Assembly: GCA_022567295.1 (NCBI GenBank)
Contig: JADFHE010000002.1
Location: 65,196 to 107,018 of the forward strand
Reading direction: 5' to 3'
Length of the DNA stretch: 41,823 nt
DNA from: Pseudomonadota bacterium
Lineage (GTDB): Bacteria > Pseudomonadota > Gammaproteobacteria > Steroidobacterales > Woeseiaceae
In this document: positions 5,971 through 13,430 of the stretch, in pieces
How the letters are laid out: the number at the start of each line of letters is the position of its first letter
Position numbering within the stretch: the stretch's first letter is position 1
The notes under the pieces: model-generated
Databases searched by the model: none
Told to the model about the DNA's origin: nothing
Seen by the model: the letters and a program-made list of their open reading frames with translations, nothing else
Program-made: the position numbers and the translations under genes

Positions 5971-7380
5971 CTATTGCTCGTAAAGCCAGCGCAGCAACGC
6001 CTCCTGTACTTCTTCGCCTGGGCCACGATGAATATTTTCAAAGTTTTGCATCGCTACAATTACGAATCGACGTCCGGATCTTGATTGCAGGTAACCTGCA
6101 ATTGCCGTGACATGATCGAGCGAGCCCGTTTTTAAATGCGCCTTGCCCAGCAGGTCCGCATCGTTGAAGCGGCGGCGAAGCGTTCCATCCAGACCCGACA
6201 GTGCCATGGAGGCAAGATATTCCGGCATGTACGGCTGCCGCCACGCAAACTGCAACATTTCCGCCATGTCTTTGGCTGTCGTTCGGGTGTTTCTCGACAG
6301 TCCCGCGCCATTCTCTATGGCAATTTTCGTCGACGCGAGTCCATTATCCGTCAGCCACTTTGAAATCACTGCCTTGCCGCTTTCCTCGGTGCCCGGCGCA
6401 CCGTTCGCCTCGGCGCCCAGCGTATACAACAACTGCCGGACCATGACGTTATTGCTGTGTTTGTTGATGCGCGCGATCATATCAGTGAGCGGCAGCGAGT
6501 CGAACGACAACAGCGGTTCGGCATCTTCTTCTACGATGACGTTTCGCCAACCGCCCTCGAACAAACCACCCGAGTCTCGCCACAGGGAGCCAAATAGCCC
6601 ATAGACGAACTCATTGTGGGTCAGCGCCGCTCTGTCCATGGAATAACGATCGCAGCCGCTGGGAAACTGCCCCGAAAACGTCACCTCGTCAATCGCATTG
6701 TTGGCCGTAATGGTGATGCCGCGTTGATAGCCACGGCAGCGGCCATTGGCAAGGCCGAGCCGATTCTTGACGCCAAGGTTTTCAAGCGGCGGGTCCAGTC
6801 GAACCTTGACCGTACCTGCTTCGTGATCGGGTTCGAACCAGTACCTCACAACCTTGAAATTCATGAGCAGCGCGTTAGGCGCGACGTTATACGCACGCAG
6901 CGGCTGGCGATCGAAAGCCGCCGGGTCATAATCTCCGACGTCAAACCAACTGTCATCGAGCAGCAAATCCCCTGTTATTTCCCGCACACCGGCGTGTCGG
7001 ATGTTGCGCAACAATTGCCAGACACGTTCGGTAACCAGAAACGGATCGCCATAGCCCTTGAGCAGCAGATCACCATCGAGTCGGCCGCTGCTGAGCTTCC
7101 CCTTTGCGTACACGTCGGTGCGCCAGCGATAGGCGGGGCCCAGAACATCCAGCGCGACAAGTGTCGTCAATAACTTGATGGTTGATGCGGGATTGCGTGC
7201 TTCGTCGCTTCGCCATTGCAGAACCGTTTCACCCGTTTCGACGTCAGCGACAAACACACTCAGCGAATCGTGTGCAATATTCCGCGCGTCCAAAGCACTG
7301 CGGATACGGCCGGGCAGCTCCGTTTCTGCGGCCTGCACACTCATCGCCAGTACCAGCACCAGGGTTGCGAACCGTCTCAT
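5971..7380 (-). CDS. dacB: D-alanyl-D-alanine carboxypeptidase/endopeptidase (PBP4 family)
   Basis: Periplasmic class C penicillin-binding protein that trims and cleaves peptidoglycan cross-links. After a signal peptide (cleavage near VQAAE), the three active-site motifs are present: S66-T-I-K69, SNN in KHSNNVMVRQ, and KTG in HLKTGSLDHV. The long insertion between the first two motifs is typical of PBP4. Length 469 residues, normal (E. coli 477). Its ATG overlaps the stop of the upstream TVP38 gene by 4 nt, so the two are translationally coupled. The context with a membrane protein and a sigma-54 activator suggests regulated cell-wall remodelling; that is inference. Confidence 0.93.
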   Translation of the reverse strand: MRRFATLVLVLAMSVQAAETELPGRIRSALDARNIAHDSLSVFVADVETGETVLQWRSDEARNPASTIKLLTTLVALDVLGPAYRWRTDVYAKGKLSSGRLDGDLLLKGYGDPFLVTERVWQLLRNIRHAGVREITGDLLLDDSWFDVGDYDPAAFDRQPLRAYNVAPNALLMNFKVVRYWFEPDHEAGTVKVRLDPPLENLGVKNRLGLANGRCRGYQRGITITANNAIDEVTFSGQFPSGCDRYSMDRAALTHNEFVYGLFGSLWRDSGGLFEGGWRNVIVEEDAEPLLSFDSLPLTDMIARINKHSNNVMVRQLLYTLGAEANGAPGTEESGKAVISKWLTDNGLASTKIAIENGAGLSRNTRTTAKDMAEMLQFAWRQPYMPEYLASMALSGLDGTLRRRFNDADLLGKAHLKTGSLDHVTAIAGYLQSRSGRRFVIVAMQNFENIHRGPGEEVQEALLRWLYEQ

Positions 7381-8087
7381 ACTGTCGATTCCATTTTTTC
7401 CTGATTATTCAGATGTCTCTCCAGGACGCGAGTTGCCGTACGGTGAATCACCAAGGCCGCAGCAATAACCGCAATGAGGCCGGCACCCAATATCCAGTAT
7501 CCCAGCTCTGGCGGAGCCGCCTCTCCCGACAGTATCTGACCCATATCGCGAGCCAAGGTGCCGACATAGACAAACAGAGCAACGGCCGGCAGCATCCCGA
7601 TTCCAGTTGCGAACAGGTGTGTGCGCGCATTCACCGAGGTTGCACCGTATGCGTAGTTCAACAGGTTAAACGGGATGATGAGAGACAGTCGCGTCAGAAT
7701 AACGACCAGAAAAGCCCGCTCGCGCAGTGCGGCCTCAAGCGCTCGCATGCGTCGCTTGTCTGACACCTTTTTTCGTACCCAGGGCCGCGCGACCCAACGA
7801 CCGAACTCGAACGCGCATTGCGCTCCCAGTGGAATAGCGAACACCGCGAAAACGAATCCCGGCAGGAATCCGAACAGGAAACCACCGATCATCATTACTA
7901 CAGAGCCCGGCAGAAACAACACGGTTCCGACCACAACAAAAACCATGTAAACAATCGGACCGGCTACCGGATGTTGTCGGCCCCAGTCCACCAGCAGCGC
8001 GACCCACTCCGACAGAGGGAACAGATAGAGGCTGGCCGCCATTGCAACGATGACCAGCAGCAGACTGATTCTGTTCCCAGACGCCAC
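7377..8087 (-). CDS. TVP38/TMEM64 (DedA-superfamily/VTT) membrane protein
   Basis: Inner-membrane protein of 236 residues. The VTT/SNARE-associated core is recognisable: GTVLFLPGSVVMMIGGFLFG, then FEFGRWVARPWV, and the arginine-bearing LTRLSLIIPFNLLNYAYG segment; about six hydrophobic segments in all. Relatives are implicated in lipid scrambling or undecaprenyl-phosphate recycling, but the substrate of this subgroup is not known. It starts with GTG, which overlaps the stop of the sigma-54 activator by one base (TAGTG), and its end overlaps dacB by 4 nt. It is therefore the middle gene of a coupled activator-TVP38-PBP4 operon. Confidence 0.88.
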   Translation of the reverse strand: MASGNRISLLLVIVAMAASLYLFPLSEWVALLVDWGRQHPVAGPIVYMVFVVVGTVLFLPGSVVMMIGGFLFGFLPGFVFAVFAIPLGAQCAFEFGRWVARPWVRKKVSDKRRMRALEAALRERAFLVVILTRLSLIIPFNLLNYAYGATSVNARTHLFATGIGMLPAVALFVYVGTLARDMGQILSGEAAPPELGYWILGAGLIAVIAAALVIHRTATRVLERHLNNQEKMESTV

Positions 8088-9886
8088 TAGCGACGCACCG
8101 GCTTCCTGATCTTCAAGGTTCGAATCCTGTCGGCCAGTGTCGTCGGCCGAACGCCGAGCAGTTCAGCCGCCCCTCCGGGGCCCGACACCTTCCAGTTCGC
8201 CTGCTCCAGCGCCCTAACAGTATTGTTCCGTTGATACTCCCGCATATTCTTTTCGGTCAGCACTTCATTATTGGTCAATGCGACTTCAGCAATTTCATCG
8301 ATTTCAGATTTAAGTCCCGGCATCGACAGATCCAGTCGCAGAACCTTTCCGGTTGAGAGAATGACAGCACGCTCGATTACATTCTTCAATTCACGCACGT
8401 TACCGGGCCAGTTGTAGGCGCGAAGATTAGCAGTTTGCGCGCGCGTCAAAGCCAGGCCTTCACGGCCAAAATCGGTACAGGTCTGCTCTAGAAAGTGTTG
8501 CGCGAGTTGCACTATGTCCTCGCCACGCTCACGCAATGGCGGCACGTCGATAGGAAAAACGCTGATTCGGTAGAAGAGGTCCTCGCGAAAATCGCCGTCA
8601 ACAATAAGTTGTTCGAGGTTTCGATTGGTAGCCACTATGACACGAACATCGACGCGGCGAGTAATGTCATCACCGACACGCTCGAATTCGCTCTCCTGCA
8701 AAACCCGCAATAACTTGCCTTGCAGTTCCATTGGTATTTCGCCAATTTCATCAAGGAAAATCGTTCCGCCGTCAGCTAGCTGAAACCGGCCAATCCTGTC
8801 TCGATGTGCGCCCGTGAAGGCGCCTCTCACATGGCCAAAGAATTCGCTCTCAAACAATTCCTTGGGAATGGACGCACAGTTGACCTTGACCAGCGGCCCG
8901 TCTGCACGGGGACTTTGCAGGTGGATAGCATGCGCTACGAGTTCTTTACCGACACCGGACTCGCCCTGCACGAGAACGGTCGCCGGCGTTTCGGCTACGG
9001 CCTCCACCCTCTTCATCATCCGGCGCAGCGCGGGGCTGGTACCCACGATGTGACCGAAGTTCATCGCAACATTTACTTCTTCACGAAGGTAATCGCGTTC
9101 GCGCTCCAACTCTTCCCGAAGTCTCGCGTTCTCGGCCAACGTGCGACGGAGATCTCTTTCAGCCCGGCGGCGATCGGTCACATCTTTGGAGGCAACCAGC
9201 ATTTGGTCAACCTTGCCGTCCTCATCGCGATGCGAAATTGCTGACATGACAAGATCAAGAACAGTGCCATCTTTTGCCAGCATCTGGCGTTCAAGATTGT
9301 TGAAGTCACCCTCGCTGATCAAGTCTTTCATGCGTCCATCGGCGTAATATTTTCGATCGCGTACGCTGAAGAAATCGGTGATAGGTCTGCCGACAACGTC
9401 TGCTCTTTGGAATCCCAGTTTCTGTAACCAATGATCAGTAACGGTAACGATCAGGCCATCGCCGTCAACCGTGTGCAGCATTGCGGGGGTTGCCCGGTAC
9501 AACGTCCGGTATTTGAAGTTTGCCCGCGCCTGATCGGATATCTCCGCGTACATGGCAACGGTACGCAAAAATTCTCCTTCGCGGTCGTATTCAACAATCG
9601 CATTGGTCATGCAGTCGACGACCTCTCCCGATTTTGTGACAAAGCTTATGGGCTTGTCTTCGAGTTTTCCGGTCCGCCGCAAAGCCGGTCGTAACTCATC
9701 ACGAACGCGAGCAGCGCTTTCCGGCGTTGTGAACTCTTCCGGACTTCGGCCAACCATGTCGTCGCGGTCGTAACCCAGCCTCGCAAGCATCGCGTCATTT
9801 ACATCAAGGTACACGCCATCCTCAGCAATGGATGTCGCCATCGCCGGCGACTTGCGAAACAGCCATTGATAGTCGTCTTGGGTCAT
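8087..9886 (-). CDS. Sigma-54-dependent activator with two PAS sensor domains
   Basis: A 599-residue enhancer-binding protein. Two PAS domains (about residues 8-120 and 125-240), a charged coiled-coil linker (about 240-275) and a AAA+ domain (about 280-510) come in order. The AAA+ domain has Walker A GESGVGKE near 308, the sigma-54-contacting GAFTGA loop near 355, and Walker B TIFLDE near 376. A C-terminal Fis-type helix-turn-helix of FhlA type (GGAAELLGVRPTTLADRIRTL) follows. PAS instead of a receiver domain means it senses a small molecule, redox state or ligand rather than being phosphorylated. I prefer the ATG at 9886; a GTG at 9895 is possible, and neither has a clear ribosome binding site. 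The three operators just upstream suggest autoregulation. Confidence 0.92.
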   Translation of the reverse strand: MTQDDYQWLFRKSPAMATSIAEDGVYLDVNDAMLARLGYDRDDMVGRSPEEFTTPESAARVRDELRPALRRTGKLEDKPISFVTKSGEVVDCMTNAIVEYDREGEFLRTVAMYAEISDQARANFKYRTLYRATPAMLHTVDGDGLIVTVTDHWLQKLGFQRADVVGRPITDFFSVRDRKYYADGRMKDLISEGDFNNLERQMLAKDGTVLDLVMSAISHRDEDGKVDQMLVASKDVTDRRRAERDLRRTLAENARLREELERERDYLREEVNVAMNFGHIVGTSPALRRMMKRVEAVAETPATVLVQGESGVGKELVAHAIHLQSPRADGPLVKVNCASIPKELFESEFFGHVRGAFTGAHRDRIGRFQLADGGTIFLDEIGEIPMELQGKLLRVLQESEFERVGDDITRRVDVRVIVATNRNLEQLIVDGDFREDLFYRISVFPIDVPPLRERGEDIVQLAQHFLEQTCTDFGREGLALTRAQTANLRAYNWPGNVRELKNVIERAVILSTGKVLRLDLSMPGLKSEIDEIAEVALTNNEVLTEKNMREYQRNNTVRALEQANWKVSGPGGAAELLGVRPTTLADRIRTLKIRKPVRR

Positions 9887-9900
9887 TACGCGCACAGTCT

Positions 9901-9955
9901 ATACGGTTTTTCGTAAATAGTGTTACGGATTTTCGTAATTTACGATATTCCGTAA
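9901..9955. promoter_or_regulatory. Three tandem inverted repeats, likely activator binding sites
   Basis: Three copies of TTACG-N6-CGTAA occur in a row: 9901-9916 (first arm imperfect, ATACG), 9923-9938 (perfect) and 9940-9955 (perfect). All have the same 6-nt spacer; centres are 22 and 17 bp apart. They fill the space immediately upstream of the activator gene and lie about 50-100 bp before the sigma-54 promoter at 10002. This is the usual distance for upstream activating sites. The stretch to the promoter is AT-rich and could bend. Binding by the neighbouring activator is inferred from position. Confidence 0.8.
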
Positions 9956-10001
9956 TATCGATAAACGAGATAAGACTTTGTTTTAAAAGCTTTTTCAAAG
10001 T

Positions 10002-10017
10002 TGGCATGGCTTGTGCA
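10002..10017 (+). promoter_or_regulatory. Sigma-54 (-24/-12) promoter
   Basis: TGGCATGGCTTGTGCA matches the sigma-54 consensus TGGCAC-N5-TTGCA. The invariant GG (-24) and GC (-12) are correctly spaced, with only two mismatches (T for C, G for T). It points toward the small peptide gene at 10091, giving an expected start near 10028 and a leader of about 60 nt. The adjacent sigma-54 activator gene and the three upstream operators strongly support a real promoter. Confidence 0.85.
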
Positions 10018-10090
10018 TTATGAAGATCGAAACCTAACTATTCGCTGCGGCCCACGAACCGTGCGGCGCTGCCCAAACAAGGACATCATC

Positions 10091-10228
10091 ATGAAAAGCA
10101 AAATTTTTGAGAACGGACTCGCCATTTTGGGCGCTTTGATAATCATCGTCGGCGTTTCTGCCGCTGCCAATACGGCACTGGCTGGCAACATGGGCACACT
10201 TGAAATGCATCGTTCAGCCCAAAAGTAA
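10091..10228 (+). CDS. 45-residue exported or membrane-anchored peptide under sigma-54 control
   Basis: Small gene with a good ribosome binding site (AAGGA, about 8 nt before the ATG). The product has a short basic/polar N-terminus (MKSKIFENG), one hydrophobic segment (about residues 9-28) and an A-L-A motif at 29-31. A 14-residue polar tail GNMGTLEMHRSAQK follows. It can be read as a signal peptide cut after Ala31 that releases a tiny peptide, or as a single-pass membrane peptide. I do not recognise a family. It is divergent from the sigma-54 activator and directly behind the -24/-12 promoter, so it is likely the activator's main target. The reading frame extends upstream to 10001, but that start would lie inside the promoter. 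Confidence 0.72.
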   Translation: MKSKIFENGLAILGALIIIVGVSAAANTALAGNMGTLEMHRSAQK

Positions 10229-10619
10229 GGCCGTAACGAATCCTCTCCGGTAACTTGCCGGCCAGATCTCTCCCCCTGACATTCTGGCTGGCGACTCCGG
10301 GGACTCACCGACAGGAAGACGGTGAAAAACGGACCAGGATGGTCCGGCGGCACCCCCCTGCCGTTATCTTTGAGGCGCCGGAGACCGTTCCGTATCGGAT
10401 CGGCCCGCTGAATCAACTTCTGAATTCAGTTCTTCGGCGCCTTTATTTATCTCGGTTGAGAATCCCTGTGCTGTTCGGCACGATGGCCGCGATGCTCTGC
10501 ACCGCGCAGACTGATCATTACCCGGAGCTGCCGTAACCAGTGGCGCACCCATGCGACTTCGTCCGTTTTCAACCGTCAGATGAACGGCCTGTCTGATCTT
10601 TGCCCAAGCGATCGTTAAG
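10229..10619 (+). other. 391-bp region without a convincing gene; holds three hairpins
   Basis: No supported coding region. A frame open from 10255 to 10536 gives a low-complexity, basic, unrecognisable product without a good ribosome binding site, so I do not call it. The notable content is the hairpin group at 10305-10371, described separately. A short CCGG-N7-CCGG palindrome lies near 10248-10262. The right part (about 10440-10619) shows nothing I can interpret; it is downstream of both flanking genes, which converge here. Confidence 0.6.
10305..10371 (+). ncRNA. Possible CsrA-binding RNA: two hairpins with CAGGA(A/T)G, then a terminator-like hairpin
   Basis: Hairpin 1 pairs TCACCG (10305-10310) with CGGTGA (10320-10325) around the loop ACAGGAAGA. 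Hairpin 2 pairs CGGACC (10330-10335) with GGTCCG (10341-10346) around AGGAT. Hairpin 3 pairs CGGCA (10348-10352) with TGCCG (10359-10363) around six C and is followed by TTATCTTT. CAGGAAG and CAGGATG are forms of the CsrB/CsrC repeat that binds CsrA/RsmA, which needs GGA in a loop. It could be the 3' untranslated part of the sigma-54 transcript or a separate small RNA. Only two sites are present, far fewer than in CsrB. Confidence 0.4.
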
Positions 10620-11528
10620 TCACGTGTCGCCAATCGAAAGGTGCAAGTCCAGGAACTCGAGCGTCCGACGCCATGCGTCCTCTGCTGAGTCAGCCTCATA
10701 ATTTCGGCCCGTCGGGTTAGCAAATGCATGCCCGACGCCCGGGTATACATGGATATCGTGGTTCTTGCGCAGTCGCTGCAGCGCATCTCTGAACGCCTCC
10801 ACGGACTCGACCTTGATGCTACGGTCTTCTGCACCAAACAGGCCCAGAATGGGAGCACCTATCGGGCGCAACAGATCCTCGTCAGCCGTGACCTGGCCGT
10901 AATAGATAACGGCTGCATCCAGCCCTTCAGGGAAGAGTTGCGCTGTGTTCAATGACCAGCCACCACCGAAACACCAGCCGATCGAACCGACCCGCGGTGC
11001 GCTAGCACTTATGCTGACAAACGCGAAAGCGGCTCGGATGTTTTCTTTGGCCGGCTCAGGGTCTTCGATCACCTCCATCATGAGTGCCCGAGCCATTCCA
11101 GCCGTATTGGCCACTTCGCCATGGAAGAGATCGACCGCGAATACGATGTAGCCTTCACCAGCGAGCCGATTAGCCATGGACCGAATATTGTCATTCAGTC
11201 CCCACCATTCGTGGATCATGATGACCGCTGGCAGTGGTTCAAACATATCCGCAGGCGCTGAAAAAAAGCCGTAGACCAACTCGTTCTTGTACTCCGTGTA
11301 GGCCATGGTTTGTGAAATAACAGGCCGCGCAGGCCTGACCTCCGCCCCGGCACTTGGCTCGGTGGTATCGTCGGCATGCTCGTTGAACATCGCGTCAGCA
11401 TTGGCGAGTGCAGCCGCTGTCGCAGTATCAGCAGCGCCGGACTGGCCGGAATCGCAGCCACCAAGTAACGATGCCCAAAACCAGATCATTGAAATAAGTC
11501 CAGTGAGCGAAATCCTGCCCCTATTCAT
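10620..11528 (-). CDS. Dienelactone hydrolase-family lipoprotein
   Basis: A 302-residue alpha/beta hydrolase. The lipoprotein signal ends in LLGGC, so it is probably membrane-tethered outside the cytoplasm. The dienelactone hydrolase fold is seen in VIMIHEWWGLNDNIRSMANRLA (oxyanion region), GSIGWCFGGGWSLN (nucleophile Cys in G-x-C-x-G), the Asp in GAEDRSI and the His in GVGHAF, giving a Cys-Asp-His triad. The start at 11528 has AGGAAAG 7-8 nt upstream; the open frame reaches further 5' but would run into the antiporter gene. Divergent from the Kef-type antiporter with 132 bp between. True substrate unknown; DLH-family members act on many esters. Confidence 0.87.
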   Translation of the reverse strand: MNRGRISLTGLISMIWFWASLLGGCDSGQSGAADTATAAALANADAMFNEHADDTTEPSAGAEVRPARPVISQTMAYTEYKNELVYGFFSAPADMFEPLPAVIMIHEWWGLNDNIRSMANRLAGEGYIVFAVDLFHGEVANTAGMARALMMEVIEDPEPAKENIRAAFAFVSISASAPRVGSIGWCFGGGWSLNTAQLFPEGLDAAVIYYGQVTADEDLLRPIGAPILGLFGAEDRSIKVESVEAFRDALQRLRKNHDIHVYPGVGHAFANPTGRNYEADSAEDAWRRTLEFLDLHLSIGDT

Positions 11529-11660
11529 ATGTCTTTCCTGTCCAAACGGTCCAGATTTTCGCCGCGACAACTGCGGCGGCGAAACCCAGTGTAATAGAAA
11601 ATTGAGGCAATAGGCGATGCCTGCTTTAGACTGTGCCGTTGCCAATAAAACGGAGCTGGA

Positions 11661-13430
11661 ATGACCTTGCTTGTCCAGACGCTGATTTTCCTGCTTGCCG
11701 CGGTTATCGCCGTGCCACTCAGCCGGCGCCTTGGTCTTGGCTCCGTACTCGGCTACCTCGCAGCCGGAATCATCATCGGCCCATTCGGTTTTGCCTTTGT
11801 CCGCGACCCTGACTACATTTTTCACTTTGCCGAGCTCGGCGTTGTGTTCCTGCTTTTTATTGTGGGGCTTGAGCTTAAACCTTCCCGACTCTGGGTGCTC
11901 CGACGCATCGTATTCGGCCTCGGCGCTGCACAGGTCTTCACCTCGGCGCTCGCTATCGCATTGGTTGCCTGGGTATTCGGCTTCAGCATGAATACTGCGA
12001 TCGTTGCCGGACTGATACTTGGGCTGTCGTCCACGGCGTTCGTATTGCAGATGCTGGCCGAGAAAAAGCAGCTCAGTACGAGTCACGGCCGGTCCGCATT
12101 TTCCATACTATTGTTTCAGGATCTGGTGGCGATTCCGCTGATCGCGGTATTGCCATTACTCGGCCCCAATGCGTCGTTCGACGATGGCGTCAATTTTATG
12201 CAGCTTGGGCTGATGGCCGCGACGATCGGCGGGCTCATTATTGGTGGGCGCTATTTTCTCTCACCAGCACTTAGAGTGGCAGCAAGATCGGGGATTCCAG
12301 AAATCTTTACGGCGACGGCATTGCTGGTCGTCATCGGTGCCGCGCTGCTCATGCAAGTAGCCGGCATGTCGATGGTTCTCGGTGCATTTATCGCGGGCAT
12401 GATGCTCGCCGACTCGGAGTACCGCCATCAGCTCGAAGCTGACATCGCTCCATTCAAGGGTTTATTGCTCGGGCTCTTCTTCATAGCCGTCGGCATGTCT
12501 GTCAACGTCGGACTGCTTCTGGAAATCCCAGGGCGGATCATCTTGATAGTTACGTTGCTCATGGTCACGAAGGCCATCGTCCTGTTTCCGCTGGCACTGC
12601 TGTTCGGATTGTGTAACCGCGCCGCAGCGCTGAAACTTTCTGCCGTTCTCGCCCAAGGCGGTGAATTCGCTTTTGTACTGCTCGCTATCGCTGCCGGCGA
12701 GTCGGTGTTGCCACAGTCCGTTATCGACGAATTGATACTTGCGGTCGCGATCTCAATGCTGATGACGCCGTTTATTTATGCAGCAGCCGAAGCTGCCGGT
12801 GGAAAAATAACAAAACCGGATGAACGAGAATTCGACGTGCCCGCAGACAACCACAAGGAAGTATTGATCGTTGGCTTCGGCCGCGTGGGTCAGGTCATCG
12901 GCCGCCTGCTAAATATCGTCGGCAACTCCTTCACGGCATTGGAGCTGGATTCGTCACAAGTCGAATTTGTACGGCGATACGGCGCGACGGTGCACTACGG
13001 AGACGCTTCCCGGCTGGAAGTGCTGCGAGCCGCCGGTGCCGAGCACGCGAAGATATTTGTCCTGGCAGTATCTGACCTGGAAGAATCGATGAAAATAGCC
13101 GAAGCTGTCTTGCGCAACTTTCCACACCTGACAATAGTCGCACGAGCACGCAACCGCCGGCACGCGCACAAGCTGATGAGTCTGGGAATCGAACACATTT
13201 TCCGCGAGACGTTGTTGTCGAGCCTGGCAATGTCAGAGCATATACTGAAAAGTCTTGGCCAGAGTCCAGAAGACGCGAAGCACATTATTGATACTTTTTA
13301 CGAACGGGATTCACGACTGCTCACCGAGCAACACGCAATACACGATTCGGAAGAAAAATTGATTCAATCAGCGAAAGATACTGCAGCAGAACTTGAGTCT
13401 TTGCTGCGACGCGACAAGCGAGAAAATTAG
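11661..13430 (+). CDS. CPA2-family monovalent cation:proton antiporter with RCK domain (Kef type)
   Basis: Inner-membrane K+ (or Na+)/H+ antiporter, 589 residues. The N-terminal two thirds holds 12-13 hydrophobic segments, including LGLSSTAFVLQMLAEK and LFQDLVAIPLIAVLPLL, typical of CPA2 exchangers. An RCK/TrkA-N nucleotide-binding domain starts near residue 395 (VLIVGFGRVGQVIGRLL, a Rossmann GxGxxG, then YGDASRLEVLRAAGA). GGAG precedes the ATG. KefB and KefC are gated by glutathione adducts with an ancillary quinone reductase; no KefF/KefG-like gene is nearby, so glutathione control is unproven. I leave the symbol empty because KefB, KefC and YbaL types cannot be told apart here. Confidence 0.9.
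   Translation: MTLLVQTLIFLLAAVIAVPLSRRLGLGSVLGYLAAGIIIGPFGFAFVRDPDYIFHFAELGVVFLLFIVGLELKPSRLWVLRRIVFGLGAAQVFTSALAIALVAWVFGFSMNTAIVAGLILGLSSTAFVLQMLAEKKQLSTSHGRSAFSILLFQDLVAIPLIAVLPLLGPNASFDDGVNFMQLGLMAATIGGLIIGGRYFLSPALRVAARSGIPEIFTATALLVVIGAALLMQVAGMSMVLGAFIAGMMLADSEYRHQLEADIAPFKGLLLGLFFIAVGMSVNVGLLLEIPGRIILIVTLLMVTKAIVLFPLALLFGLCNRAAALKLSAVLAQGGEFAFVLLAIAAGESVLPQSVIDELILAVAISMLMTPFIYAAAEAAGGKITKPDEREFDVPADNHKEVLIVGFGRVGQVIGRLLNIVGNSFTALELDSSQVEFVRRYGATVHYGDASRLEVLRAAGAEHAKIFVLAVSDLEESMKIAEAVLRNFPHLTIVARARNRRHAHKLMSLGIEHIFRETLLSSLAMSEHILKSLGQSPEDAKHIIDTFYERDSRLLTEQHAIHDSEEKLIQSAKDTAAELESLLRRDKREN

Follow-up and report, generated by a model that had tools for sequence, protein, structure and literature searches.

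A sigma-54 activator locus of Woeseiaceae with a putative regulatory RNA encoded behind a small peptide gene

The window (the whole stretch of 41,823 nucleotides that was analysed, from a draft genome of the gammaproteobacterial family Woeseiaceae) holds a sigma-54 activator gene and, next to it, three palindromic sites, a -24/-12 promoter and a 45-codon open reading frame (ORF). Behind this ORF, positions 10244-10450 encode a structured RNA that ends in a Rho-independent terminator. With moderate confidence, we consider that the locus probably specifies a sigma-54-controlled regulatory RNA that is made together with a small membrane peptide. An earlier reading of this DNA, made from its letters and translations (hereafter the sequence-only reading), had described a compact module of operators, promoter and peptide gene. 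Its observations were confirmed: palindromes, promoter element and small ORF all lie where it had placed them. From its interpretation, a local unit made up of the sigma-54 activator with its own operator, promoter and target is well supported, because the unit is conserved and is jointly absent with rpoN. Meanwhile, the idea of a self-contained signalling unit of about 330 bp centred on the peptide is not well supported, and the RNA, which extends beyond the region considered earlier, is the more important element.

Based on these findings, we propose that a PAS-domain enhancer-binding protein would occupy the three upstream sites and, helped by IHF-like bending, would switch on one sigma-54 promoter. 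A single transcript of ~420 nt would follow, coding for a small peptide, exported or in the membrane, and continuing through the structured RNA to the intrinsic terminator. The RNA, possibly after release from the mRNA, would regulate in trans, its C-rich loops pairing with other mRNAs at G-rich ribosome-binding regions, and the GGA loops would perhaps additionally bind CsrA.

Table 1 Positions of the activator gene, control sites, ORF and RNA elements in the window
Feature	Position	Strand	Remarks
PAS-PAS-AAA+-HTH sigma-54 activator	8087..9886	-	599 aa, ATG start; Pfam domains
Activator site 1, ATACGGTTTTTCGTAA	9901..9916		ATACG...CGTAA, 9/10; at least 8/10 in 82/83 loci
Activator site 2, TTACGGATTTTCGTAA	9923..9938		Perfect palindrome; at least 8/10 in 79/83 loci
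Activator site 3, TTACGATATTCCGTAA	9940..9955		Perfect palindrome; at least 8/10 in 82/83 loci
IHF-like site, TAAGACTTTGTTTT	9971..9984	+	Between activator sites and promoter; TAA-N4-TTGTTTT
Sigma-54 -24/-12 promoter, TGGCATGGCTTGTGCA	10002..10017	+	TGGCA[CT]-N6-TGCA in 83/83 loci
45-codon ORF	10091..10228	+	AAGGA ribosome site; hydrophobic N-terminal signal or membrane segment
Hairpin A, outer stem and long stem, C-rich loop TCTCTCCCCC	10244..10303	+	Loop CCCC 45/45; double changes in 8/11 pairs
Hairpin with GGA loop, TCACCG ACAGGAAGA CGGTGA	10305..10325	+	Double changes in 4/4 counted pairs; GGA 41/45
Hairpin with AGGAT loop, CGGACC AGGAT GGTCCG	10330..10346	+	Double changes in 3/5 pairs; GGA 36/45
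Hairpin with C-rich loop, GCGGCA CCCCCC TGCCGT	10347..10364	+	98.9% of cells paired; CCCC 45/45; no double changes
Branched Rho-independent terminator, two inner hairpins, U-rich tail	10371..10450	+	Outer stem 98.5% paired; double changes in 2/9 pairs

The activator matched the Pfam families PAS, Sigma54_activat (1.8e-70) and AAA_lid_14, along with a weak match to HTH_8 (E 0.036, under the family cut-off). A GAFTGA motif at residue 355 and both the Walker A and Walker B motifs were found. With its AAA+ sigma-54 domain and these motifs, the protein falls among the sigma-54 enhancer-binding regulators. Its relatives in the loci that were read displayed 57-88% identity, and matches with E values of 1e-80 or better were obtained in 89 of 101 Woeseiaceae genomes; a few of them were only partial or more distant.

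Conservation of the control region was assessed in 83 loci, namely those read that contain the start of the activator gene. Left out before this count were two copies of the window's own locus (L001 and L002) and two loci in which the regulator start fell outside the best match (L086 and L089). Each site was scored per locus as the best match at most 2 bp from its expected place. The near-consensus -24/-12 promoter of the sequence-only reading was present in every locus (Table 1), and likewise in 37 of 37 named-record loci that have a close activator together with its start, a set that overlaps the 83. Sites and promoter are identically spaced in 68 of the 83 loci. Within these 68, the sites, the IHF-like stretch and the promoter stand out against DNA that varies for the most part, both in the gaps separating them and past the promoter. 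The IHF-like site is conserved at 0.87-1.0 in its TAA columns and at 0.69-1.0 in its TTGTTTT columns, and we take it to fit the IHF consensus with one mismatch. The arrangement of operators and promoter is not due to chance, because it is conserved in 83 homologous loci, 68 of them with identical spacing. The sequence-only reading had made its case depend in part on such conservation, and the repeats and the promoter are indeed retained across the homologous loci. Its description of three TTACG-N6-CGTAA repeats of identical spacing holds in part: the internal N6 is constant and sites 2 and 3 are perfect, but site 1 has one mismatch and the site starts are 22 and 17 bp apart. Transcription is expected to start near 10028.

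Perfect TTACG-N6-CGTAA palindromes occur at four places in the 3.0-Mb draft genome to which the window belongs, two of which are sites 2 and 3. As candidates for further activator targets, the remaining two (L090 and L091) lack the conserved TTY half. A refined operator pattern with one mismatch allowed matched the genome at 100 places (the reversed control at 72) and revealed no second close cluster of operators there. Hence, the activator appears to have one clustered target.

The distribution of rpoN was also examined, and the gene was detected in 89 of 101 Woeseiaceae genomes, the window's own included. The activator list and the rpoN list, each with 89 of 101 genomes, are not identical. 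All nine draft genomes of genus g5, which are partly incomplete (two of nine at 90% or more), gave no match for rpoN, the activator or the RNA. These genomes (G004, G015, G020, G023, G026, G029, G032, G035 and G038) are small drafts of 1.1-2.0 Mb. Three further drafts (G061, G076 and G044) gave no rpoN match either; G061 and G044 nevertheless displayed regulator and RNA matches. Of the 12 genomes in which no activator was matched, two drafts (G025 and G094) do have rpoN; in two other drafts (G085 and G046) rpoN is present and the activator match is only weaker or partial.

The small gene with a good ribosome binding site that the sequence-only reading had noticed was recovered throughout the family. 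An ORF was picked in 82 of the 83 loci, the exception being L038, whose contig ends inside the ORF and which was dropped before the ORF count. A ribosome-site match precedes the ORF in 78 of 82 loci, although this site and the hydrophobic start are partly built in, because the picking script prefers both. From counted changes, dN/dS was ~0.29 for the 45-aa group, 0.36 for the 94-aa group, 0.40 for the 49-52-aa group, 0.42 for the 30-37-aa group, and 0.69 for the far group. Judging from these ratios, the 45-residue peptide is under purifying selection at the coding level, which argues that the transcript is not solely an RNA. Inspection by eye points to possible cleavage of the peptide after ALA. 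No fitting entry for the peptide family was found in Pfam, nor in NCBIfam for the window peptide; as far as these two collections reach, this agrees with the earlier remark that no system with this peptide has been described.

The peptide is the most variable part within the family, with ORF lengths of 30-99 residues, while the promoter and the C-rich hairpin A are constant. Distant members terminate in a LDLDIRLIGPTSVKIA-like strand, of which a trace is left in three 51-aa forms, and the 30-aa forms stop at the membrane segment. When mapped by parsimony onto the activator tree (80 sequences), the long ORF class needs eight changes, at least three of which are forced by well-supported branches. 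The most distant member (L083) carries the long ORF form, and the length of its branch makes its place in the tree uncertain. In these comparisons, the 45-residue peptide resembles a truncated version of an exported protein of 80-99 residues, and we interpret the short forms as having repeatedly lost its mature part.

The RNA stretch of the window folds at -101.8 kcal/mol (z -6.0), and a folded region common to the relatives lies between stop codon and U-tract. The U-tract and the G-U pairs indicate that the + strand fits as the RNA strand. We aligned 45 same-genus RNAs (alignment A1), hand-chosen from 76 that were delimited by pattern (L006 was re-cut by hand). RNAalifold yielded 29 pairs from these sequences, 14 of them with double changes. 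A structure of 46 pairs was then composed of the RNAalifold pairs plus the outer stem and the inner terminator hairpins, for which we drew on the single fold and on the alignment. In this structure 94.2% of 1837 cells pair, compared with 28-49% for slid structures. Double changes occurred in 24 of 46 pairs and 115 cells, against 13.7 and 34.9 in shuffles, with none of 500 shuffles as high; the test used the same sequences from which the structure was drawn up, and since all of them are same-genus RNAs, these figures speak for the genus of the window. The inner helices of the terminator displayed double changes in 3/6 and 4/7 pairs and are gapped in about 16 of the 45 rows, which lack them. The evidence for the hairpin at 10347-10364 is its conservation, because a double change was never seen there.

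The occurrence of GGA in the two loops (Table 1) compares with 12.7 and 8.2 expected from permuted loop letters. In the window these GGAs begin at 10314 and 10337, 23 nt apart. The C-runs stay while the GGA hairpins are missing in many loci of other genera. A GGA hairpin in the 5′-UTR was kept out of the model; it was seen in 5/49 and 2/32 loci (0.8 expected in each), the window not being among them. The pattern for the terminator found none in six of 82 loci, of which three (L026, L063 and L071) are short upstream stretches and one (L082) has a terminator that the pattern overlooked. In the other two (L060 and L066, from g3), hairpin A with its C-run is all that is left, and a same-direction ORF resembling an exported protein replaces the later hairpins and the terminator. 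In another locus (L084), the small hairpins ATACAGGGATGTAT and GCACAGGGATGTGC alternate and repeat after the terminator, ~410-500 nt past the -24 element.

A second hand-chosen set (A2) comprised 36 sequences, four of them from other genera. The covariance model covered the part before the terminator in 36 sequences and had no pairs for the first GGA hairpin. It matched 76 of 101 family genomes, i.e. the 36 model sources and 40 others. The match is single in 75 of the 76 genomes, and 75 of 77 matches lie on the contig of the activator when the listed places are compared. Some of the 25 genomes without a match carry a diverged form of the RNA (e.g., L075 and L061). Scans of wider samples, run with stricter filters that lose weak matches, gave matches in 70 of 296 genomes of the order, one of them outside the family (G249), and in 2 of 369 genomes of the class, both of the window's genus and none outside Woeseiaceae. 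The match in G249 lies on the same contig as L100 and is identical in sequence; misbinning and transfer are indistinguishable here, because the contig spans 6.2 kb and the bin has 6% contamination.

No Rfam family fits the RNA, with no gathering matches in 16 loci and none in L074 at E values up to 5. Two microRNA matches of the window (E 2.7 and 3.4, in a search to E 5) were dismissed as chance, being far below gathering. In the open-access literature searched, we found no on-topic small RNA report for Woeseia, as judged by title, nothing joining Woeseiaceae with RpoN or with noncoding RNA, and nothing on a dual-function sRNA with a small protein and sigma 54.

The sequence-only reading had fitted the regulator and its target into about 330 bp. 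Instead, the transcript most likely runs on for ~220 nt past the ORF, through the covarying RNA to the terminator. The next full gene in the window is of the dienelactone-hydrolase type (DLH), on the opposite strand and convergent. It is convergent also in 30 of 39 named loci, i.e., wherever it was found; thus, the RNA is not a leader of the following gene in those loci. A convergent PGPGW-family gene lies between in both loci tested (L116 and L118), and the ORF listing held no intervening gene in L097 and L102. In the window, positions 10462-10560 of the - strand contain what is left of the C-terminal portion of a PGPGW-family gene, with 60.6% identity to the L118 protein over 33 residues and no longer match within the stretch searched. 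The neighbourhood at 5971-8087 and 10620-13430 of the window is conserved among the 39 named loci, within the limits set by stretch ends: dacB was found in 30/39, a VTT-domain gene in 24/39, DLH in 30/39 and a KefB-like exchanger in 16/39. Several of the more distant loci yielded no VTT gene.

To look at candidate targets of the C-rich loops, we counted GGGGGAGA-N2-9-ATG in 26 same-genus genomes and obtained 116 occurrences, against 14 for the reversed pattern, an excess that ordinary ribosome sites alone may explain. Start regions were retrieved for 92 of the 116 target places (90 stretches) and for 72 of 83 control places (70 stretches); the 24 target and 11 control places left out came mostly from genomes late in the lists. 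Every counted ORF (at least 100 aa, or, if the frame stayed open at the stretch end, at least 20 aa) was scanned for the TonB Plug domain. This domain was present in 16 of 57 ORFs behind the motif, and in 2 of the 38 ORFs preceded by the scrambled GGAGGGGA (Fisher p 0.0066), in a comparison that is post hoc and based on partial retrieval. It was suggested by the first 30 loci, which gave 5/16 ORFs, and the later stretches gave 11/41. Orthologs in this test are not independent, and 5 of the 38 control ORFs form one set of ABC-transporter orthologs. An earlier count with 17 gave p 0.0035, or 0.013 after rough collapse of orthologs. One more ORF (L286) is receptor-like by eye, has no Plug domain and stands outside the 16. 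Genomes without an RNA match had the domain in 0/10 ORFs, too few for comparison. These counts make TonB-receptor mRNAs a weak lead as targets of the RNA. Two species share GGGGGAGAAAAGT[T/C]ATG (L200 and L201), which heads a 15-codon ORF only.

The window's genome encodes both CsrA and Hfq. The two GGA hairpins, enriched in the same-genus set and not in all genera, would fit CsrA binding. The CsrA consensus is RUACARGGAUGU, and the second GGA hairpin presumably resembles it, as compared by eye.

Several other explanations must be weighed against a regulatory RNA made with a peptide. The peptide could be the product, with the structured region serving merely as a 3′ UTR in mRNA protection, cis CsrA binding or termination, which we regard as possible though somewhat unlikely. 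The ORF itself speaks for this, being found in 82/83 loci with a ribosome site in 78/82 and with dN/dS of 0.29-0.42 in all groups except the farthest, at 0.69, as does the position of the RNA directly behind the ORF with the terminator at its end. However, a stability element has no obvious need for a C-run kept in two loops in 45/45 sequences, and repeated loss of the mature part from the ORF (eight changes, three forced) seems to have left the RNA in place. It is less probable still, and in our view clearly unlikely, that acting as a CsrA sponge, in the manner of CsrB/RsmZ or McaS, is the main role of the RNA, with the C-rich loops being secondary. The strong excess of GGA in the two loops over permutation (41/45 and 36/45 versus 12.7 and 8.2), the CsrA gene and the 23-nt distance between the loop GGAs of the window would agree with a sponge, but the RNA has two GGA hairpins only, and these are absent from many loci of other genera that keep the C-runs.

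The sequence-only reading had seen a self-contained signalling unit, in which the exported peptide would be the signal sensed by the PAS protein. We consider this highly improbable. The signal-like N-terminus, a possible tail of 14 residues (by eye) and the status of this locus as the regulator's sole clustered target in the genome are consistent with it, but the regulator keeps 57-88% identity among relatives whose peptides have different tails or none, nothing connects the peptide with the PAS domain, and nothing was found that marks this most variable part of the unit as a signal. Returning to the regulatory RNA, a fuller version can be formulated: a lineage-wide dual-function RNA of ~420 nt that would combine an envelope peptide, silencing of TonB-receptor mRNAs through the C-rich loops and titration of CsrA through the GGA loops. 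This version is speculative, and we hold it to be doubtful.

Parts of this arrangement are reminiscent of known systems. The small RNAs Qrr (via LuxO) and CrcZ (via CbrB) are made from sigma-54 promoters through an enhancer-binding protein, and differ from the Woeseiaceae unit in having other activators, other structures and no known peptide. CsrB, RsmZ and McaS also expose GGA in hairpin loops, whereas the Woeseiaceae RNA has just two GGA hairpins, not family-wide, next to C-rich loops. The small RNA glmY of Escherichia coli is driven by a sigma-54 promoter with three upstream QseF sites and IHF, beside the activator's own genes (PMC6075780). The Woeseiaceae locus shares with glmY the three activator sites, an IHF(-like) site, the sigma-54 promoter and the adjoining activator; it differs in that the activator is a PAS protein without a receiver domain, the operators are TTACG-N6-CGTAA rather than TGT-N12-ACA, an ORF separates the promoter from the RNA, and no Rfam family matches that RNA. 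Meanwhile, the small RNA sX13 of Xanthomonas has three stem-loops with 4C, 4C and 5C loops, which act on G-rich motifs at ribosome-binding regions, the 4C and 5C loops repressing mRNAs with G-rich start regions (PMC3771888). The C-runs in two hairpin loops of the Woeseiaceae RNA (45/45 each) are alike; there is no sequence-family match, and sigma-54 control, a preceding ORF, GGA loops and a branched terminator set the Woeseiaceae RNA apart. We found no account in the open-access literature searched of a glmY-like promoter, sX13-like loops, a co-encoded peptide and a PAS activator together.

These findings have implications for the Woeseiaceae, a little-studied marine family known mainly from metagenomes, to which they add a structured RNA without a match in Rfam 15 that is present across most sampled genomes, in a promoter setting with a logic open to direct tests. 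If true, the dual-function RNA would join three regulatory layers in one sensor-controlled sigma-54 transcript. A coding part that seems to shrink repeatedly while the RNA persists would offer a case for the origin of dual-function RNAs. If the target lead holds, a cue sensed by the PAS protein would be linked to outer-membrane nutrient uptake.

A layout similar to the Woeseiaceae unit was seen in a record labelled as Nitrosomonas (L127), in which a 43% identical PAS activator is divergent from a small exported protein that is EF-hand-like by eye. Within 1 kb upstream of this activator gene, none of the Woeseiaceae palindromes occurs, and a TGGCAC element precedes the other cargo.
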